A DNA stretch of 64,000 nt from Cloeon dipterum (Eukaryota; Arthropoda; Insecta; Ephemeroptera; Baetidae): contig NC_088787.1 of NCBI RefSeq assembly GCF_949628265.1, forward strand, positions 13,072,501-13,136,500, in the 5' to 3' direction. Position 1 is the stretch's first letter. The number at the start of each line of letters is the position of its first letter. The position numbers and the translations under genes were made by a program. This document shows positions 4,659 to 54,614 of this stretch, piece by piece. The notes under the pieces were generated by a model, which saw nothing but the letters and a program-made list of their open reading frames with translations, was not told the origin of the DNA and ran no database searches.

Positions 4659-4736
4659 ACTAGAGTGTATTTCAATACCAAACTTTTGAATTGTCTGGAA
4701 CTTTTCTTGACGAAACTGGTATTGTTCCGGTATTGT

Positions 4737-6432
4737 CAGGCCCGGACTGGTAATCGGGCGCACCGGGCGAAACCCCGGTGGGCCGCGGCCCAAGTGGGCC
4801 GCCCGGACCGCCCAATATTTCCAAGACTGTCAAGCAGCCCGCGTTTGTGGCTGTCGCAGCCCATTTTTTGTGGTTTTTCCGTGCTGGAGCTGGCGGCAAC
4901 ATAAGTTCAATTCTTTGTTGTGGCTAAAACATTTTCAAAATCAAAGGAAAAATCTTGAAAATAAAAAATCGAAAAAATTTTCATTTTCGTTGCGCCCACC
5001 GGGCCACCGCTTTGGTCGTTGGGCCCGCTCCTCGTTAAATTCATGTTATCATATTTTTATTGGGGAGTGATCAAACGGGAAAAACTATCATATCCTTGAT
5101 TTTTCTGTCTTACACAGGAATAAAAATTAAATCGAGAGCTTGATCAGGTATGTACAAGGACTCGGCGGCCCCCTCTTCGAGATTGAAAAATTCGCTTTGC
5201 GTGTTTCATACTAGCGCGGAAACTATTGAATGCATTATTTGGGCTGCGTTTTTATTAGATTTGGATGAGAATAGGCAACAAACGGCCGAAGGAGCTAAAA
5301 CTTCTTTTTTCCATTTTCGAACTATTGACCGGCGGCAGGCGTGCCTGGCGAGCTAAAACCAAAGCGGCTAATCAAAATTTGGCGAGGCTGGCTGATGTGA
5401 GTGCTCTAGCATACGTTTCTATTTTTATTTAGAAGTCAAATATGTAAAAAAATTTCAAGAAAAAATTAATGTCAAGCTGATTTGTTCAAAAGGGAAAAAA
5501 GGTAATATTAATCTGAAAAAATATTTATTTATTGCTCTGAACCTCATACAAGAGTGAATTTTGAGGAACACCACAGATTTTAGCAACGCAACCTTATTCA
5601 ACTGTCAAGTTTTCCCTGTTTTCCAAAATAATTGGGCCAGAATAGGTCGATTATTGATGTATTTGATGTCACTCCATCCATTTCAGATGATATATATATA
5701 TATATGTATTTTTACTGCACAACTAAATAATCCGTACAAGTAAAAAATCAGTCGACATGAATGGCAGCTTCCTCGAAGAATAGCGCGAGCTTTATATTTT
5801 TCTGTATTTCTACAGAAATATCCTGCTCAACTAGTTTCGGCTACTGGTTGTAGTCCTAATTCATGAGCTTCCTCTCCCGACAAGTGGCTGAGCAGGACAT
5901 TATTTCTGTAGAAACGCGGAAAAACAAACAGCTCGCTATCAGGGTTGTATTTGCTTTAATAATACCACTCGATTTTGTTCACCACCTGCTTTTTAACGGT
6001 TTCTACCACTCAATTTTGCACATTTCTTGCGCAAGAAATTCAAGAAATGAATTTATTCCATTTTCACCTTATGAAAATCTAAGATTTTCGTTCGGAAGTG
6101 GTCAAAATTTCCTCTACTGTACACATTTTTTTCTTTTAAATTGCCATTTGCTGCCTCAATTTCTCCAAATGGTTCTTTAAAAAATTTTGAAGTCGAGGTC
6201 ATGAGCAAATAATTAGAAAATTATTGAAAACTGAGGTGCAAATATGGCCTGCAAGAAAATGGTAAAAAATTGGAAAAAAAGTTTTTACCACTGCACCGCG
6301 CAGGAAACTACCTTTCATTTAAATGGAAAATTATAAAAGGTCGGGGGGGGGGGGGGTAGTGGGCTGCGGTGGCTCGGTGGGCCGCGAAAATCAACAGTCC
6401 CCGGTAAAAAATTTGGTGCCAGTCCGGGCCTG
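4737..6432 (+). mobile_element. Non-autonomous hAT-type element, copy 1
   Basis: The 1.7 kb element is bounded by a perfect 14-bp terminal inverted repeat, CAGGCCCGGACTGG at the left and CCAGTCCGGGCCTG at the right. Terminal CAGG and 8-bp target duplications are typical of hAT elements. The left flank is GGTATTGT; the right flank is ATGCTCAC, so this copy alone has no matching duplication. It has no long transposase frame. It contains a G tract of 14 at 6343-6356 and a short TA run at about 5689. It differs from the copy at 8854 by only a few indels and substitutions. Confidence 0.85.
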
Positions 6433-8853
6433 ATGCTCACTGCTCGATCAATGTCAGTTTTTATACAATGAAAATGTCCTTCTTCTTTTCATGACCCCAA
6501 AAGGAGAGTGCTGTCCTTTTGTCTGCCTTCAGGAGAAAAATTCACAGCACATTTTGAATCCACTTAACAAAAGAGGGAATTCCATCCCTGAAATCGCGGA
6601 GTCCGATCCGAAAAATTCCAACGTCGGCATAAACTTTGGCTGTGGAGGAAGAGACCAATAATTGGTGTCTACCCTCCCAGGTCGATTGTTGCGCCGGTAC
6701 AATGCAAAATGCTCAGGCGAAAAAGGTGTCTTATGGAAAACTCAGGTTAAATTTTTCCGAGACACGAACCTTCGTTTTTCTATCGTGCAAACAGGTTTTC
6801 CAGGGTAAAATCTCCCGGGGATTCCGAATCTGGCAGCGGAGTGTGAATTTGCGAAGCGCAGTCGACATCGAACGATTTTGCAGAGCGCGTTGTGGCGGTG
6901 CGGGTTTTGGTTGCAAAAGGCACGATTTTGTGGTACAAAATCGAGCGCCGCCGTCGTGCTTCACAAAAAAGAGCGGCGCTAAAGTCCTGCGCTTCGCTAT
7001 AACGAGCGGCGCCGCCATCCCGCACTCCGCCAAAAAGAGCGCCTCCGCCAAAAAGAGCGCCTCCGCCACGCGCACCGCCACACCGCGCAATCCGCACCGC
7101 GCCGCCGCCGAAATTGGAAAAAGTAATTAATGATGCCAGAAAAACCGCGTAAAAACAGTCATAAGGTTGCGCGACCTGTGGAAGATCGGTTACAGTCCAG
7201 GGTTTAAAATCGTCGCGCAAAAAGGGTGTTTTTTGAGGGTATAGGGTTGCGTGGCTGACATAGGATGACGGTCGACGTCAAAGTCGACAAAAAGTGTCGT
7301 GTCGTGCATGTTTTCAGGGTGAAATTTTCCGCAAAGACCAAATTTGAGGTTGAAAACTTGAAATTGTTCGGAGTTTTTTAGATTGTTAAGAAAATTCGAC
7401 CAAAACCCGACTTTTCGTTACCAACCGAGGACCGCATTTCGTATGGGAGGTCAAATGTCATAAATCTTGACACAAAAACGTGAAATTCGGTTTGTGGGCA
7501 CAAAATAAAGTGCTGAGCAGAAAAAAATTTTGGTTTTTGAAAATCAGACAAAAATTGTCCATTTTCATAAGGGGTCTGTGTTTGGCATTGCAGCTCAACA
7601 CCTATGGGTCTGAGAGCAAAAATAAGCACAGATTCTGAAAGCTGATAAAATTTGCAATCTTCTTCGTGGCGAAAAAATTTTCCTCCGCCTTCGAATTTTC
7701 CGAAAAAATTCCATTAATAAATCACTTGACTTCTTGGGAAAAGGAAAAATATCGAGAAAAAATTTTCAAGATAGCGAAACTTTAGCTCAAGTCTTCATTA
7801 ACTTCTCATGAAAAAATAAAACCTTTCGTGCAAGCCGTTTTTGTGCTGCGCGCGATTTCCCAAGTGTCCAACTTGAAAAACCGAAAAAAAATCGAAAGTT
7901 TCCAAAAATAGTCAAATTGCACATTTTCGGACTCGTCGTGAAATGCGGATTCCAAAAATGTTTTTTTTTTTTAAATCGGATAACTTTGCGAAAAGTTACA
8001 CCATTTTTAAAATGTGGAAATTTTCAAAAATTTCTTTAATGTTTCAAAGTTCCATAACTTTTCGAATAATGCTCGGATTTTCAAAAACCAAACATTTTTG
8101 GAATCAGCACTTCGTGTGGAGTCTGAAAATGTGCAATTTGACCATTTTTGAACTCTTTCGATTTTTTCGGTTTTTTCAAGTTGGACACTTGGGAAATCGC
8201 GCGCAGCACGAAAATGGCTTGAACGAATGTTTTTATTTTTTCACGAGACGTTAATAAAGACCCCAGCTAAGTTTTGGCTATCTTGAAAATTTTTTCTCGA
8301 TATTTTTCTTTTTCCCAAGAAGTTTAGTGAATTTTCAAAGGAATTTTCCGGGAAAGTCGAAGGCGAAAGAAATTTTTGTTCCACACAATGAAGATTGCAA
8401 ATTTTATCAGCTTTCAGAATCTGTGCTTATTTTTGCTTTTTGACCCATAGGTGTTGAGCTGCAAGGCCAAACACGGACCCCTTATGAAAGTGGACAATTT
8501 TGGTCTGATTTTCAAAAACTAAAATTTTTCCAGACCAACTTGCCATTTTCTAGCAGCATACCGAATTTCGACTTTATTCGACAGGATTTGTCCCCTAACT
8601 CTCCCCTCGAGCTGAGCTTCCCGACACGTGTTGCCGGAGTTAGACATTTTCACCGATTTTCATGAAAAATCATAATTTTTTCGATTGTTTCACATCAACA
8701 ATGGCTTCGCCGGAAAATTTCAGCCAGAATCGATGTTGTGCTTCACATTTTGTGAGAAAATTTGGGAAAGCCGTAATTTTTGGTGACCTGAAATTCAAAA
8801 TTTCGCTTCCCTGAAAAATTTAACATTGCAAATCGAAAAAATAACGCCAGATT
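6433..8853. other. Segment carried between two hAT copies
   Basis: This 2.4 kb segment separates the two hAT copies. 6760-7100 is GC-rich with a short tandem GCCTCCGCCAAAAAGAGC unit near 7025-7065. The overlapping open frames there on both strands look like compositional artefacts. 7519-8531 is a fold-back repeat. No gene is recognised. Confidence 0.6.
7519..8531. repeat. Fold-back repeat of about 1 kb
   Basis: This is an imperfect inverted repeat centred near 8025. TTTGCAATCTTC at about 7650 and CAGCTCAACACCTATGGGTC at about 7590 pair with GAAGATTGCAAATTTTATC at about 8392 and GACCCATAGGTGTTGAGCTG at about 8443. Inner parts (around 7880 and 8180) also pair but less well. It is probably a fold-back element or MITE without coding capacity. 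Confidence 0.75.
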
Positions 8854-10558
8854 CAGGCCCGGACTGGTAATCGGGCGCACCGGGCGAAACCCCGGTGGGC
8901 CGCGGCCCAAGTGGGCCGCCCGGACCGCCCAATATTTCCAAGACTGTCAAGCAGCCCGCGTTTGTGGCTGTCGCAGCCCATTTTTTGTGGTTTTTCCGTG
9001 CTGGAGCTGGCGGCAACATAAGTTCAATTCTTTGTTGTGGCTAAAACATTTTCAAAATCAAAGGAAAAATCTTGAAAATAAAAAATCGAAAAAATTTTCA
9101 TTTTCGTTGCGCCCACCGGGCCACCGCTTTGGTCGTTGGGCCCGCTCCTCGTTAAATTCATGTTATCATATTTTTATTGGGGAGTGATCAAACGGGAAAA
9201 ACTATCATATCCTTGATTTTTCTGTCTTACACAGGAATAAAAATTAAATCGAGAGCTTGATCAGGTATGTACAAGGACTCGGCGGCCCCCTCTTCGAGAT
9301 TGAAAAATTCGCTTTGCGTGTTTCATACTAGCGCGGAAACTATTGAATGCATTATTTGGGCTGCGTTTTTATTAGATTTGGATGAGAATAGGCCAACAAA
9401 CGGCCGAAGGAGCTAAAACTTCTTTTTTCCATTTTCGAACTATTGACCGGCGGCAGGCGTGCCTGGCGAGCTAAAACCAAAGCGGCTAATCAAAATTTGG
9501 CGAGGCTGGCTGATGTGAGTGCTCTAGCATACGTTTCTATTTTTATTTAGAAGTCAAATATGTAAAAAAATTTCAAGAAAAAATTAATGTCAAGCTGATT
9601 TGTTCAAAAGGGAAAAAAGGTAATATTAATCTGAAAAAATATTTATTTATTGCTCTGAACCTCATACAAGAGTGAATTTTGAGGAACACACAGATTTTAG
9701 CAACGCAACCTTATTCAACTGTCAAGTTTTCCCTGTTTTCCAAAATAATTGGGCCAGAATAGGTCGATTATTGATGTATTTGATGTCACTCCATCCATTT
9801 CAGATGATATATATATATATATATGTATTTTTACTGCACAACTAAATAATCCGTACAAGTAAAAAATCAGTCGACATGAATGGCAGCTTCCTCGAAGAAT
9901 AGCGCGAGCTTTATATTTTTCTGTATTTCTACAGAAATATCCTGCTCAACTAGTTTCGGCTACTGGTTGTAGTCCTAATTCATGAGCTTCCTCTCCCGAC
10001 AAGTGGCTGAGCAGGACATTATTTCTGTAGAAACGCGGAAAAACAAACAGCTCGCTATCAGGGTTGTATTTGCTTTAATAATACCACTCGATTTTGTTCA
10101 CCACTGCTTTTTAACGGTTTCTACCACTCAATTTTGCACATTTCTTGCGCAAGAAATTCAAGAAATGAATTTATTCCATTTTCACCTTATGAAAATCTAA
10201 GATTTTCGGTCGGAAGTGGTCAAAATTTCCTCTACTGTACACATTTTTTTCTTTTAAATTGCCATTTGCTGCCTCAATTTCTCCAAATGGTTCTTTAAAA
10301 AATTTTGAAGTCGAGGTCATGAGCAAATAATTAGAAAATTATTGAAAACTGAGGTGCAAATATGGCCTGCAAGAAAATGGTAAAAAATTGGAAAAAAAGT
10401 TTTTACCACTGCACCGCGCAGGAAACTACCTTTCATTTAAATGGAAAATTATAAAAGGTCGGGGGGGGGGGGGGGGGGGGGGTAGTGGGCTGCGGTGGCT
10501 CGGTGGGCCGCGAAAATCAACAGTCCCCGGTAAAAAATTTGGTGCCAGTCCGGGCCTG
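8854..10558 (+). mobile_element. Non-autonomous hAT-type element, copy 2
   Basis: This has the same 14-bp terminal repeats and internal sequence as 4737-6432, with almost no substitutions. The G tract at 10461-10482 is 22 long versus 14, the TA run is longer, and a few 1-bp indels occur. The left flank ends CGCCAGATT; the right flank is GGTATTGT (10559-10566), which matches the left flank of copy 1, not its own left flank. Confidence 0.85.
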
Positions 10559-10984
10559 GGTATTGTTTCTGAAAGGAATGTTTAAAATTTTCTTGTCTTG
10601 TATTGTTTTTCAAACCTTCTTGTTTTGGTTTTCTGACAAAAAATCCTTGTATCTGTATTGTAATTTATTTTTTTGAAAAAATTCTTGGTTGTTTTTGGGA
10701 TTTTTTCTGAAAGACATCTTTTTTAAGTTTTATATTACCAAATCTTGCTTTGGCATTTTAATAAAATTGTCATTTTGCTTGATTATATATATTTTAAAAT
10801 TGAAAGTAGAGAGGGGACCAGGGACAGGGACTACGGGAATTTTGTATTTCGAGACAAGGGATGGGACGGGACAGGGACAATCTTCAGCGGGACGAGGGAC
10901 AGTTTTATCGGCAGCAATGGCAGAGTGCAGCATGAAAAGCCTAAAGATTCTCACTTTGTCCGTTCGAGGAGGAATAAGGAAGCA

Positions 10985-37882: not shown

Positions 37883-40531
37883 ATGAAAGTAGTACTGCTC
37901 ATTTCGACATTAATTTTCGCGTTCTTCAATCACGGGGAAGCAGCTCGGATTCTCGGACTGTTCGCCACCCCTGCCAAAAGCCACAGTCGTGTCTTTGAGT
38001 CTCTTTTCCGAGAACTGGCAGTCAGAGGTCATCAGGTGACCTTTGCTAGTCCCTTTGATCTCCAGTGGCCCTTGGGTCTCAACGAATCCTCCGGTGGTAG
38101 CATCCAATATGTCAAGCTGGACGACCAAGGAGCGCTGGGCTCCATCATGGGCTACGTGGTTGGCCCAAACAGGAGGCCCCTGGCTGAAAGCTTCTGGCTG
38201 TGGTCTATTGCACCTGATGTTTGCAGAAACGAACTCCACTCTCCAGATTTGATTCCGATAATTGACGGCGGAAAGAACAAAACCGTGAGAAATTTTTCAC
38301 AAGAAATAATTTCTTCAATGATAAAAAAGCGCTAACATTTTCTATTCATCAAAATTTGACACTTTTGTTTTCAATTAAATCCTGGAAAATACTTGTTTAG
38401 GATTCATTTGAAGCCAAAATTGACCGAAGTAGCACTGTACATTAATGTTTTGAGAAAAGTGACTGCAAAGTTATCATGATGTTCAAATGGTGAGGACTGT
38501 CTGTCTCCTTATTTGAAATCTTATTTTACTTCACAACAAAGAGTTTCATACGCTCTTGGACAGATCTCAGAGAGGAATATCTGCCAAGAAAATGCGGTTA
38601 AGCGCTGGAAATTTTGGATAAATTTTGAAAAATTAAAATTTTAATGTGGTGGCAAGGTCCGTTTTTATTATTGCAAACTGTAGGACAAATTTTTTTATTG
38701 ATCAACTGCAATTAAAATAATTTTCAACTGTCACCCAATATCAATTCACATTAATGGAAAATAAATCTGAAATTATTCTTTTCCAGATCACGTTTGACGT
38801 CGTGATTGTTGAGTCATTCTTCTTTGACTGCTTTGCATCGATGTCAAAACTGTTCGAGGCGCCTTTGGTGCTTTTCACATCGCAATGGGCGCCTCAGTGG
38901 GCTCACCAGGCCATGGGCAACCCTGACCCCTGGGCAACCTCGCCTAATATGTTTCTCCCGTACACGCACAAAATGAACTTTATTGAGCGGCTTCATAATT
39001 TCATCCACTCTGCAATCGCCCTTTTGTCCCGAAAATATTATGAGCTTCCTCGGCAGGACGTGATTATCAAAGAGGTAAGATTAAATAAGATGGAACCAGG
39101 GTTGCAAAAAACCCACATTTTTAAACCGTTTTTTTCCAATTTTTACGAGTGTTTTGCAGGCAATTTTGGTTTCCAATAATTTTAAAAAATAATTTGCTCA
39201 TGACCTCGACGTGAGTTGAAAGTTTGTCAGAGAGAAATATTTGGGGAAATTGAGGCAGGTAGAGGCAATTTTAAAGATAATAATCTGCACAGAGAAGGAA
39301 TTTTCGACCACTCCGACCGCGAACTTTAGACTTACACAGGGAAAAATTAAAAAATTAATATCTTGTATTTCTTGCGCAAGAAATTGTTAAAAACCGGTAG
39401 TGAAAAAATCTGGGTGGTAAGCAAATGCAACCCTGGACGAGAACAAATCAAGGAAATTCTAAAATGGAAATCATTTTCCTTTAATTCGTACAGGTATTTG
39501 GTGAGAATTTCCCCACTCTGGCAGAATTGGAAAAGGAAGCTGCTCTCATGTTAATAAATTCGCACCCGATCACCAACTCGCCCCATGCAAATTTGCCTAA
39601 TGTGATCGAGGTGGGTGGCATTCACATTCAGCCAGCAGAACCTTTAGACAAGGTGGGCGATTTTTAAGTTTAATTTCGAGTGAGTGGAGCTACTTAAGAA
39701 TTTTTCAGGAGCTCGAAAGTTTTTTTGAAGGATCTCCGAACGGGGTGATTCTGTTCAGCCTTGGCTCGCTAATTAACAAAGACAACATGGATCCAGAAAG
39801 GCTGCACACCCTCACCAAAGCTATGGCTGCCATTAATTATCCCATCCTCTGGCGATGGGACACAACGGATGTGCCAAACTTGCCAAAAAATGTTAAAATA
39901 TTGCCGTGGATTCCGCAGCGAGACGTTTTAGGTATTGCAAAATAAAATCCCATCTCTGCCCAAATGATTCTAATTTGTTTTTTACAGCTCATAAAAATCT
40001 ACGCCTCTTTGTGACACACGGTGGTCTCCTTAGCACTCAAGAAGCAACTTACGAAGGCGTTCCAAGGCTTGTAATGCCATTTTTTGGAGACCAACAGAGC
40101 AACGCTCAAAAAGTTGTGCAAATGGGGGTTGGCCTGTCCCTGAATTACTATTCCGCGAGTGCTGAGGAAACTGCCAGCGCAATCAACACTATTTTAACAG
40201 ACAAACGGTTCGTTCTATGAGAATTTAAGTGAGAAAAATGCTCAAGGTTTCTAACAGGTATGCCAGCCGGGCGAAGCAACTTTCAAACGCTTTCAGGGAC
40301 CAACTGAACAGCCCCCTCGAGAGAGCCGTCTTCTGGACTGAACATGTGATTCAGCATAAAGGAGCTGCATATTTGCGTTCCGCAAGCAGTGGCTTGAATT
40401 GGTACCAAGACCTGTGTTTGGACGTGCTGGCGTTTCTCCTGTTAACGTCAGCAGTGGCTATTTTAACGGGGATTGCTCTTTTAAAAGCATTATCGGCGTT
40501 CATTGCGAGTCGGAAATCGAAAGTTGATTAA
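37883..40531 (+). CDS. UDP-glycosyltransferase (insect UGT, family 1)
   Basis: The enzyme transfers a sugar, usually glucose in insects, from a UDP-sugar to small lipophilic compounds. It is anchored in the endoplasmic reticulum membrane and faces the lumen. Coding exons: 37883-38284, 38787-39074, 39494-39652, 39709-39931, 39988-40207, 40258-40531. They sum to 1566 bases, 521 aa, the normal family length. A signal peptide covers residues 1 to about 20. The candidate catalytic His is in AKSHSRVFESL, and FDVVIVESFF occupies the position of the family acidic partner. The donor-binding signature reads FVTHGGLLSTQEATYEGVP then PFFGDQQSNA. A C-terminal membrane helix (LDVLAFLLLTSAVAILTG) is followed by a short basic tail ending KSKVD, a KxKxx retrieval signal. 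The last intron is only 50 bases. Introns 1 and 2 hold transposon remnants. Substrate is unknown. Confidence 0.93.
38385..38700 (+). repeat. Interspersed repeat R1, copy 3
   Basis: In UGT intron 1. It shares with 28860-29180, in order, AATCCTGGAAAATACTTG, GAGAAAAGTGACTGCAAAG, GGTGAGGACTGTCT and CTTGGACAGATCT. Confidence 0.75.
39097..39435. mobile_element. CAGGGTTGC-ended MITE in UGT intron 2
   Basis: It starts CAGGGTTGCAAAAAACCC and ends GCAAATGCAACCCTG, inverted with respect to each other. The right half (TTTCTTGCGCAAGAAATTG, GGTAGTGAAAAAATCTGGG) is related to the right part of the hAT elements at 4737 and 8854. The flanks GATGGAAC and GACGAGAA are only loosely similar, so a target duplication is not certain. 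Confidence 0.7.
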
Positions 40532-46405: not shown

Positions 46406-49211
46406 ATGGCTAAAAATGACAAGCATAGAAGTAGTAGGTGCGGTTCATATAAGCGTGCGCGAGATAAAAAAATTAATAAACCCTGCCATTATAGTTACTG
46501 CTTTAAATCTTATGTCCAAAAAAATCATTGAATTCAAAATTATCATATACGTGTGGCATACGTGAACATTTCGGCTATCGCTGAAAAAAAAAGTGCATGA
46601 TGTGATGTTTGGGGTCATGTAAAAATAGGCCTGCAGGGCAGTAATTGTATTATTTGCTAATCTGTGTGTTCAATCCACAGTGTTGGCCAAGATGAACGAT
46701 TATGAAGACGATGACGACCTTGTTGTGGCCATGGAAGCCTGCCTTGTTGAGAAAAAGCCTGAAAAACCACAAGACGAAGAAATGGATGTACTTCACTCTG
46801 CAGCCAGCAGTGGGAATTCGCCTCTCGTGAAAAGCCTATTGGAGAAAGGAGAAGACCCAGAAAAAACAAGAAGAAACGGCTGGACTGCACTCCACTATGC
46901 TGTCAGAAGTGGTGATATACAATCTGTTAAACTGCTAATTGAATGGGGAGACAAACGGCTATTAAACCTGAAAACGAAATCAGGGTTAACATCTCTTCAT
47001 ATTGCTGCTTTAGAAGCAGACGTTGAAATGTGCAAGCTGCTCATTGACAGTGGAGTTGACATCAAAGCTAGTAATATATTGGGACAAAATGCTTTGCAGG
47101 TTGCCTGCATTGCTGGTAACCTAGGGGTGGTCCAATATTTAGCCGAACAAAAGATTTTTAACATTGAAGAGAAAAGTAGGTTCAAAAGGAATCTTTTGCA
47201 TTACTCTGTAAGATCAAACCGTTTAGATTTACTCGAATACATTTATGAGAAAGGCATAAGCATCAATGACAGAAATTTGAGTGGAAATACTCCGTTACTG
47301 ACCGCAGCTGCGACGGGGTCATTGGAGGTGTTCAAGTTTTTCATCGAAAAGGGTGCTGACTTGAAGGCGACAAACTCTGATGAGTTTGATGCCTTATTCT
47401 TAGCTGCGAAATACGGTAATTTGGATGTTGTCAAGTACTTGCTGAACTTAGGCAAGTTTGATGTGAACAGAAAGACCTCAAAAGGCCATTACCCACTTCT
47501 TTTAGCGTCTGTTAATGACAATTTAAAGGTAATTGAGTGTTTACTTGAAGCTGGAGCAGATATTAACTTACGCGGAGTTCATGGATTTACTCCATGCCTT
47601 GCAGCAGCATTGCATGCAAACGTAGAGACTCTAAAGTTGCTAGTGGAACGCGGGGCGGATTTGCACGTCGTAGACAATATGTTAGCTGATCCATTTCAAA
47701 TAGCATGCGACAGCGATGACATTGACAAGATTAAGTACCTCGTATCTATTGGGAAGTACGACTTAAAAAGACGCAATGTCAATGAGAAAACTGCTTGGAT
47801 AAAATCATCTAGGCATGAGAGTTTAGAGGTAAAAAAGTTTTTGATCGAGCTGGGGGCAAACATCCATGACACAGATAAATTCAATTTGGGTGGTATGGTT
47901 TTAGCAGCACAATTCTCCACTCCTGAAAACTGCCAGTTCATGTTGGACATCGGACTAGGATTTGATGTTCTGACAAAAGATGGAGGGAACGCACTCCACC
48001 AGACATGTGTTTCTGGAAACTTGGCCACAGCAAAATTCATTCTGGGCCTAAAGTGCTTGAACGTGAATGCAACCATGAAATCCGGTAAAACAGCTCTGAT
48101 GATTGCTGCGGGCAGAGGGCATTTAGAATTGGTCAAGTTGCTTTTGGAAAATGGTGCTGACATTAATATCAGAAATGATTATGGGTCCCTGGCCTTCCAC
48201 GCAGCAGCTGCAACCGGAGACCTGAAGACGGTGGAATATTTACTGTCAATAAGCGAGACTGGAAGCCTACTTGAAGACCGAAACAAACGTGGTGAAACTC
48301 CTCTCATTCTTTCGTGTCGCAATATATACACGAAAGTTTTCCGCTACTTACTTAATGCTGGAGCAAACTTGCAAGCTGTTGATTACGGCGGAAGAAATGT
48401 CTTCCTGTCAGCCTGCTGGGCAGGGAATCACATAGTTGCGAAACATTTAGTAGAAAATTGTCAGTTCGATCCGTCAGCAGTGACTAAGCATGGAGAAAAT
48501 GCTGTACATTGTGCTGCTAGCAATCGGTCTTTTAATAAGGACATCCTGAAATACCTGATTGAAGACTTGAAAATTGATGTGAATCACCGTGCAATCCACG
48601 ACCAAACTCCTTTAATGGTTGCAGCTGAATTCGGCTGCGCCAGAACGTGCCGCTTTCTCATTGAAAACGGCGCCGATGTGCAGGCTGAGATGAAAAATTG
48701 GGAAAATGCTTTATTCTGCGCTTGCCTTGCTAAAAATTTTAATTTGGCCAAAATCAAACTTCTCATTGAAACAGGCAAAATATGCGTTAACAAAAAGAAC
48801 TACTTTGGTCGAACCGTTTTTCACCTGGCAGTGCGAATAGGTTTGCTAGAGGTCGTGAAGTTTTTTGTTGAAGAAGCTAATGCTGACTTAGAGGTAGAAG
48901 ATACAAACGGGTGGACTCTGCTGCATGTTGCGGCGAAATTTGCTTCCCTAGAGGTAAACGAATATTTAGTAAACACCCAGGAATCGCTTTTGTACCGACA
49001 AAACTCTAGAAATCAGTTTCCAAGAGACCTGGCAAAAGAAAACGACGATGTTGGAGTGCTGCTTTATTTCAACGAAAAAATGAAACGCCGAGAGCAACCA
49101 GCATTTCGGACTGGTGGCGGCCGTGGACGTATAAATCCTACAGATAATTTGTTCACACCCCGTAACCGAGATTATAACCACAGTTTGTTCTCTACCAATT
49201 GGAGAACTTAG
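46406..49211 (+). CDS. Ankyrin-repeat protein, long copy
   Basis: A protein of about 852 aa in two exons, 46406-46433 and 46681-49211 (2559 bases in frame). Exon 1 encodes MAKNDKHRS, followed by a donor GTAGGT; exon 2 follows an acceptor CCACAG. If this exon is not used, translation starts at the ATG at 46692 (MNDYEDDDD, 839 aa). After an acidic N-terminus (to about residue 45) nearly the whole protein is ankyrin repeats of about 33 aa, with repeated G.TALH/TPL and V..LL..GAD motifs (for example GWTALHYAVRSGDIQSVKLL and GKTALMIAAGRGHLELVKLL). It ends in an Arg/Gly patch (GGGRGR) and a tail NRDYNHSLFSTNWRT. No catalytic, death or membrane domain is seen. Ankyrin stacks bind proteins; the partner is unknown. 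It is the full-length member of a recent tandem pair. Confidence 0.85.
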
Positions 49212-52709: not shown

Positions 52710-54614
52710 ATGGCTAAAGTGACAAGTAAGAGTAGTAAGTGGTTCATAAAGGCGTGCAAGAGATAAAAAATTATCAATGCTCTCATTAAAGTAACTGCTT
52801 TAAAACTTATCTAATAAAAAAATGATTATGTATTCAGAATTATCATATGTTGTGTGATTGGCATAAGTGAACCCATCATTTTGGCAATAATTGCTTATTA
52901 ACAAAAAACTGCTCAGAGTGGTGTGCATGTGATATTTTGGCCCATGTATAATGTTTGGTTTGCAGGGCTAAAATTTTATTATTTGCTAATCCGTGTGTTC
53001 AAACCATATTATATAGTATTGGCCAACATGCACGAAAGTGACAACGATGACGACCTTGTTGAGGAAATGGAATCCTGCCATGCCGAGCTTCAGGGGCCAA
53101 ATCTTAAGGCTGATAAACCACAAGACGAAGAAATGTATGTACTTCATTCAGCAGCCAGCAGTGGGAATTCGCCTCTCGTGAAAAGCCTATTGGAGAAAGG
53201 AGAAGACCCAGCAAAAACAAGAAAAAACGGCTGGACTGCACTCCACTATGCTGTCAGAAGTGGTGATATACAATCTGTTAAACTGCTGATTGAATGGGGA
53301 GACAAACGGCTATTGAACCTAAAAACGAAATTAGGGTTAACGTCTCTTCATATCGCTGCTTTAGAAGCAGACGTTGAAATGTGCAAGCTGCTTGTTGACA
53401 GTGGTGTTGACACAAAAGCCACAAATGTAAAGGAAGAAATAATCGAAGAAAATGCTTTGCAGGTTGCCTGCATTGCTGGTAACCTAGGCGTGGTCCAATA
53501 TTTAGCCGAGCAAAAGATTTTTGATATTGAAGAGAAAAACAGGTCCAAACAGAATCTTTTGCATTACTCTGTAAGATCAAACCGTTTAGATTTACTCGAA
53601 TACGTATATGAGAAAGGCATAAGCATCAATGACAGAGATTGGAGAGGAAATACTCCGTTACTGCCCGCAGCTGCGATAGGGTCATTGGAGGTGTTCAAGT
53701 TTTTCGTCGAAAAGGGTGCTGACTTGAACGCGAAAAACTCTGATGAGTTTGATGCCTTATTCTTAGCTGCGAAATACGGTAATTTGGATGTTGTTAAGTA
53801 CTTGCTAAACTTAGGCAAGTTTGATGTGAATAGAAAGACCTCAGAGGGCTATTACCCACTTTATTTTGCAACTAGTAACAATAATTTAAAAGAAATTGAG
53901 TGTTTACTCGATGCTGGAGCAGATATAAACTTACGCGGAGTTCATGGATTTACTCCATGCCTTGCAGCAGCATTACGTAAAAGGGCAAATGTAGAGACTC
54001 TAAAGTTGTTAGTAGAACGCGGGGCCGATTTGAACGTCTTAGACAATATGTTAACTGATCCATTTCAAAGAGCATGCGACTGCGATGACCTTGACAAGAT
54101 TAAATATCTCGTATCACTTGGGAAGTACGACTTAAAAAGACGTAATATCAACGGGAAAACTGCTTGGATAAAATCATCTAGACATGAGAGTTTAGAGGTA
54201 AAAAAGTTTTTGATCGAGCTGGGGGCAAACATCCATGACACAGATAAATTCAATTTGGGTGGTATGGTTTTAGCAGCACAATTCTCCACTCCTGAAAACT
54301 GCCAGTTCATGTTAGATATCGGACTAGGATTTGATGTTCTGACAAAAGATGGAGGGAACGCACTCCACCAGACATGTGTTTCTGGAAATTTGGCCACAGC
54401 AAAATTCATTCTGGGCCTAAAGTGCTTGAACGTGAATGCAACCATGAAATCCGGTAAAACAGCTCTGATGATTGCTGCGGCCAAAGGACATTCAGAATTG
54501 GTCAAGTTGCTTTTGGAAAATGGTGCTGACATTAATATCAGAACAGATAATTCGTTTACACCCCGTAACCGAGATTATAACCACAGTTTGTTCTCTACCA
54601 ATTGGAGGACTTAG
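52710..54614 (+). CDS. Ankyrin-repeat protein, short copy with internal deletion
   Basis: A protein of about 540 aa in two exons, 52710-52734 and 53017-54614 (1623 bases in frame). Exon 1 encodes MAKVTSKS and ends at a strong donor, GTAAGT; the acceptor is ATATAG. Using the ATG at 53028 instead gives 528 aa (MHESDNDDDL). The protein is closely similar to the long copy through GADINIR, then jumps to NSFTPRNRDYNHSLFSTNWRT, the same tail. About 322 codons present in the long copy (roughly 48173-49139) are missing in frame. It also has small inserts: LQGPNLKADK in the acidic N-terminus, KEEIIEE and RKR. Repeats remain regular, with no stop or frameshift, so the gene appears intact. Function unknown. 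Confidence 0.83.

Follow-up and report, generated by a model that had tools for sequence, protein, structure and literature searches.

Macrotransposition, in which two nearby transposon copies and the DNA between them move en bloc, is best known from maize Ac/Ds genetics. The Ac/Ds macrotransposons of maize are reportedly the subject of work by Huang and Dooner in 2008 and by Wang et al. in 2022. In one maize report, macrotransposon excision leaves an 8-bp footprint, and one allele had the macrotransposon in place while a second copy had appeared near p2 (PMC9910405). In the Composite Insertions of maize, duplicated flanking DNA is enclosed by transposon ends, a join inside it arises at the event, and the whole has an 8-bp outer duplication (PMC4270019). 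In Anopheles gambiae, a study of paired P elements proposes macrotransposition as the possible origin of a MITE (PMC1562414). The titles and abstract openings listed in our literature search include no natural hAT macrotransposon from an insect, a result that does not establish absence from print.

Here we describe a block of two hAT-type elements and intervening cargo in a 64,000-nucleotide stretch of the Cloeon dipterum genome (the window, C2:13072501-13136500). This block is very probably a hAT macrotransposon, moved to its present site as one unit of element, cargo, and element. It resembles the maize Ac/Ds macrotransposons in being hAT-type and in the presence of a copy at the old place beside a second copy (PMC9910405). 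Unlike the Ac/Ds cases, both elements here are short and have no long open reading frame, and the event is a natural one read from one assembly, the source of all our genome evidence. The block shares with the Composite Insertions the enclosure of flanking DNA by transposon ends, a join inside, and the 8-bp outer duplication, but its join is already present in the donor (PMC4270019). With the A. gambiae pair it has in common the movement of two nearby copies and their intervening DNA, but that case concerns P elements and a proposal on the origin of a MITE (PMC1562414).

Results

Two elements within one target-site duplication

The two elements, E1 and E2 (Table 1), lie in the same orientation and have the same 14-bp terminal inverted repeat (TIR), CAGGCCCGGACTGG, perfect in both. 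Of the 1707 columns of their alignment, 1693 are identical, 1 is a substitution, and 13 are gaps; a poly-G run accounts for 8 of the gaps, a TA repeat for 2, and single C bases for 3. No open reading frame of at least 120 amino acids overlaps either element, so both are probably non-autonomous. Read from left to right, the locus is GGTATTGT, E1, ATGCTCAC, then the cargo ending in GCCAGATT, E2, and GGTATTGT again: the outer flanks are the same 8 bp, an identity expected between two random 8-mers from the window about once in 17,000, and the inner flanks do not match each other. The earlier note on this DNA had reported the two elements with perfect TIRs, GGTATTGT outside both, unlike inner flanks, and no duplications of their own, and it was exact on all of these points, coordinates included. 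An 8-bp duplication of its own is likewise absent at both elements of the donor block described below (E_L and E_R).

Table 1. Features of the composite block and its target, in window positions.
Feature	Position	Strand	Remarks
E1, hAT-type element	4737..6432	+	1696 bp; 14-bp TIRs 4737-4750 and 6419-6432
E2, hAT-type element	8854..10558	+	1705 bp; 14-bp TIRs 8854-8867 and 10545-10558
Target-site duplication GGTATTGT, left copy	4729..4736	+	empty repeat copies have one unit fewer
Target-site duplication GGTATTGT, right copy	10559..10566	+	empty repeat copies have one unit fewer
Dispersed target repeat, left part, split by block	4661..4736	+	extent as matched in search
Dispersed target repeat, right part	10559..10699	+	extent limited by query
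Cargo	6433..8853	+	2421 bp; donor copy C2:13068214-13070634
Cargo part 2-162	6434..6594	+	matches paralogous C2:12721622-12721781, 92.6%
Cargo remainder, from fold-back repeat X	6595..8853	+	boundary with preceding part approximate

The joined target flanks, with a single GGTATTGT, match a dispersed repeat. Of the 40 matches listed, two come from the split repeat of the window itself; the remaining 38, elsewhere in the genome, each cross the junction, at 80-94% identity, and these empty sites are paralogous repeat copies and not alleles. Two of them (L039 and L040), aligned base by base, are uninterrupted at the junction, and the exact 37-bp pattern of the empty junction occurs 13 times in the genome. 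There are two GGTATTGT units in the empty copies (GGTATTGTTCCGGTATTGTTTC) and three at the filled site; therefore 8 bp were added with the insertion. The earlier note had cautioned that several GGTATTGT units at the target would make the outer match less surprising. The caution was correct, but the case stands with one unit fewer in the empty copies, and we rule out old units mimicking a duplication on the same count. The note had also proposed reading a single junction in related individuals; the single junction is there, in paralogues that take the place of such alleles.

A second copy of the block 6 kb to the left

Among the matches listed for the cargo there is one other full-length copy (Table 1). 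Its end is 1.9 kb to the left of the window, and the two cargo copies start 10.7 kb apart on the same chromosome. This other copy lies between two E copies of the same orientation, with inner junctions identical to those of the window block, and together they form a donor-like block, E_L-cargo-E_R, at C2:13064547-13071201, outside the window and approximately 6 kb to the left. The earlier note had proposed a search for the cargo flanked by single elements elsewhere; it was found flanked by the same elements, but by two of them. The two cargo copies share 2420 identical bases and differ by 2 single-base indels in homopolymers, with 0 substitutions. E1 and E_L compare in two stretches, one with 963 identical bases and 2 gap columns, the other with 726 and 7; for E2 and E_R the two stretches have 395 identical bases without a gap and 163 with 6 gap columns. 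Neither pair shows a substitution. Over all compared stretches of donor and window there are 4,667 identical bases, indels, and 0 substitutions. Two larger differences separate the blocks: E_L carries a 1965-bp insert with inverted-repeat structure (C2:13065517-13067481, in L010) that is absent from E1, and E_R has a deletion of about 1.1 kb, from about E position 396 to 1527.

No variant is common to E1 and E_L only, or to E2 and E_R only. At three single-base indels E_L is like E2 and the single copy and unlike E1, and we take these to be changes, or errors of the assembly, in E1 alone. The one substitution of E2 sits in the middle of the element, in the region with no counterpart in E_R.

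Homology between donor and target goes no further than the outer TIR ends. On its outer sides the donor is flanked by CTCCGCTA and ATGCCTCT, which are unlike each other and unlike GGTATTGT. When the 3-kb flanks on each side of donor and target are compared, there are three matches, none touching a block: one is over 2.8 kb from both blocks, one is over 2.3 kb from both, and the nearest, which is inverted, is separated from the donor by about 300 bp and from the target by about 430 bp. The locus thus shows the marks of a macrotransposon, namely a shared outer duplication, inner ends without a matching duplication, and a source locus with the same pair and cargo. We call it a macrotransposon by this structure, and propose from the sequence that it moved in one step by transposase.

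The cargo and the probable direction of the move

Most of the cargo comes from X, a dispersed repeat whose inverted arms lie in the cargo at window 7523-7907 and 8145-8529, and the cargo version of X is rearranged at cargo 402/403 (window 6834/6835). The join there, AATCTGGC/AGCGGAG, has one T fewer than the X centre, TAGCGGAG, possibly an excision footprint left by a third element.

The surroundings of the donor suggest which copy came first. The DNA right of it (13071211-13072131) matches C2:12722200-12723113 at 94.2% identity, and cargo 2-162 and this right flank occur in the same order in one paralogous segment at C2:12.72 Mb. At the position of AACGCCAGATT and E_R in the donor, each of the five X copies compared has AACGCTGGATTCGGAATCC, and the left flank of E_R is therefore X sequence. 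At the donor's left flank, the final 42 bp match the X centre, inverted. Given the paralogous order and the X flank, the block appears to have been assembled at the donor site; the copy in the window has the clean duplication and looks derived. The donor elements may have come to lack duplications of their own through recombination between E copies or through other reactions that use the ends.

A second composite on C5

In a sample of 40 family ends (28 in 14 pairs and 12 single), a second composite came to light at C5:29642743-29648001 (parts in L085-L087, L099, and L100). Its left end at 29642743, with flank CTTGTGAT, shares these 8 bp with a right end at 29648001, and the left element's own right end, at 29644630, has the flank CCTACTCA, unlike CTTGTGAT. 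Apart from the stretch from about 29643646 to 29644610, the interior of the left element is known from a match only. The stretch between the two right ends begins with about 3.1 kb of other DNA, after which E is represented only by a match to its last 214 positions (74%). Right of 29645701 there is no left TIR at up to 4 mismatches; between the two right ends, with CAGG, CAGA, or CAGT starts and up to 5 mismatches, the sole match to the left TIR is the right TIR reversed. Just inside the TIR, 3 of 6 bases differ between the two right ends. Two right-TIR-like sites (4 mismatches) also lie within the repeats.

The main relatives of the C5 cargo are on C3, at 8.77-8.83 Mb, with 87-95% identity. 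Where the C5 element's right end joins the cargo, two C3 relatives were compared, and the sequence at the join is non-E in both (CGTACTCA in C3, CCTACTCA in C5); on the other side of the cargo, in one C3 relative, the repeat continues in C3 and turns into the E fragment in C5. The source of the C5 cargo may be a lost C3-like copy. An empty site for this block was not found at up to 3 mismatches. Of the two composites, the one on C5 is the older.

The family across the genome

Exact TIR matches number 101 in the genome (51 forward and 50 reverse), and those to a reversed control pattern 5 (2 and 3). Excluding the four block copies, 28 members had both TIRs found and both flanks read: 13 in loci read whole (L014 and L036 being one element, counted once), 1 in L056, and 14 sampled pairs. 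The 8-bp duplication is perfect in 22 of the 28, has one mismatch in 2, and is absent in 4, among them the C5 composite's left element. L019, L029, L031, and the local pieces yielded no pair of ends and stand outside this count. L022 and L025 are probably copies of one insertion, given their near-same flanks and same length. With its 8-bp target-site duplication and short terminal inverted repeats, the family looks like a non-autonomous member of the hAT superfamily.

The window also holds older relatives of E: one at its left edge (2-1083, reverse, extending left to C2:13072131; about 85-87% identity), and a fragment at 39129-39384 with 75% identity.

The genome has 13 matches to PF05699. In the search for an autonomous partner, no transposase was found inside this TIR pair at the 8 of these 13 loci that were read. 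One locus (L053, G000:C5:29276554-29280787), with the inverted repeat TAGAGCACTGT, the 8-bp duplication GTGGAAAC, and a PF05699 match inside, may be another kind of hAT element, 4.2 kb long.

Discussion

Other routes to the block

The block could instead have grown in place. A single E would have been inserted at GGTATTGT and later converted to E-cargo-E, either by donor-templated break repair (gene conversion or synthesis-dependent repair) or by recombination with a circle of cargo and one E. The products would be the same outer duplication and inner junctions, and homology is at hand in local E copies that are nearly identical and all within 36 kb. Nor does any variant contradict this, since the differences are the single-base indels of E1, the one substitution of E2, and run lengths (the poly-G run is 14 in E1, 22 in E2, 18 in E_L, 19 in E_R, and 12 in the single copy). 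This history, however, takes two events where macrotransposition takes one, and at least 2.4 kb of cargo must be copied; moreover, the pattern recurs in the C5 composite, whose unlike right ends argue weakly against exchange between like copies. Because of the two events needed and the repeated pattern on C5, we weigh it lower than macrotransposition and consider it unlikely.

The internal join at cargo 402/403, together with the likeness to the maize Composite Insertions noted above, would be accounted for if the block had arisen at the window site through reversed-end transposition and re-replication. The donor, however, already contains this join, and the donor's flank and cargo start follow the paralogous order; the join was therefore not made at the window insertion. 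We regard such an origin of the window block as very improbable; reversed-end transposition could have contributed to forming the donor.

An assembly error, or a tandem or segmental duplication (an assembly duplication and a tandem duplication breakpoint being named in the earlier note as possible refutations), might be suspected from two near-identical blocks so close on one chromosome, but this is scarcely credible, and we rule out duplication of either kind, because homology ends at the outer TIRs, none of the three donor or target flank matches abuts a block, the blocks differ by the 1965-bp insert and the deletion of about 1.1 kb, and neither duplication nor misassembly is expected to give an 8-bp duplication.

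How the block may have moved

The suggestion that the outer ends of the pair acted as the ends of one composite is supported by the donor block, the empty sites, and the polarity. In the macrotransposition that we propose, E_L and E_R lie in direct orientation about 2.4 kb apart, and a hAT transposase acting in trans would have brought together the left end of E_L and the right end of E_R. The whole block, 5822 bp at its new site, would then have been inserted about 6 kb downstream into the dispersed repeat, duplicating GGTATTGT, presumably by cut-and-paste chemistry and in a single step. One counterpoint is that the donor is still present, which cut-and-paste alone does not give. The donor may have been retained through a move around replication, or the gap may have been refilled from the sister chromatid; the deletion in E_R would fit interrupted gap repair, and the insert in E_L most simply postdates the move.

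En-bloc movement may be a recurrent habit of this short hAT family, in which pairs, perhaps unlike ones, carry 2-3 kb pieces within and between chromosomes, forming blocks that can themselves serve as new composite transposons; we put this forward tentatively, as a real possibility that falls somewhat short of probable. Macrotransposition itself is already known but seldom described, and the window block appears to be a well-documented natural example. Its value lies in completeness: the target, a paralogous empty site, the donor, the polarity, and a second case are found in one genome. Since the target, empty site, donor, and cargo setting can be read, and a second case appeared among 40 ends, assemblies could be used to measure how often short hAT elements move en bloc. 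More generally, macrotransposition can duplicate or move DNA and leaves a clear mark when it does.

Other features of the assembly

Seven of the 20 contig ends (L044-L050) were sampled, and in none do the first 200 of 400 bases contain a simple telomere repeat; several of these ends are AT-rich and repetitive. Further along the window, at 46680-49211 and 52923-54614, are two long ankyrin-repeat open reading frames with very similar translations, a likeness that suggests that they arose by duplication.
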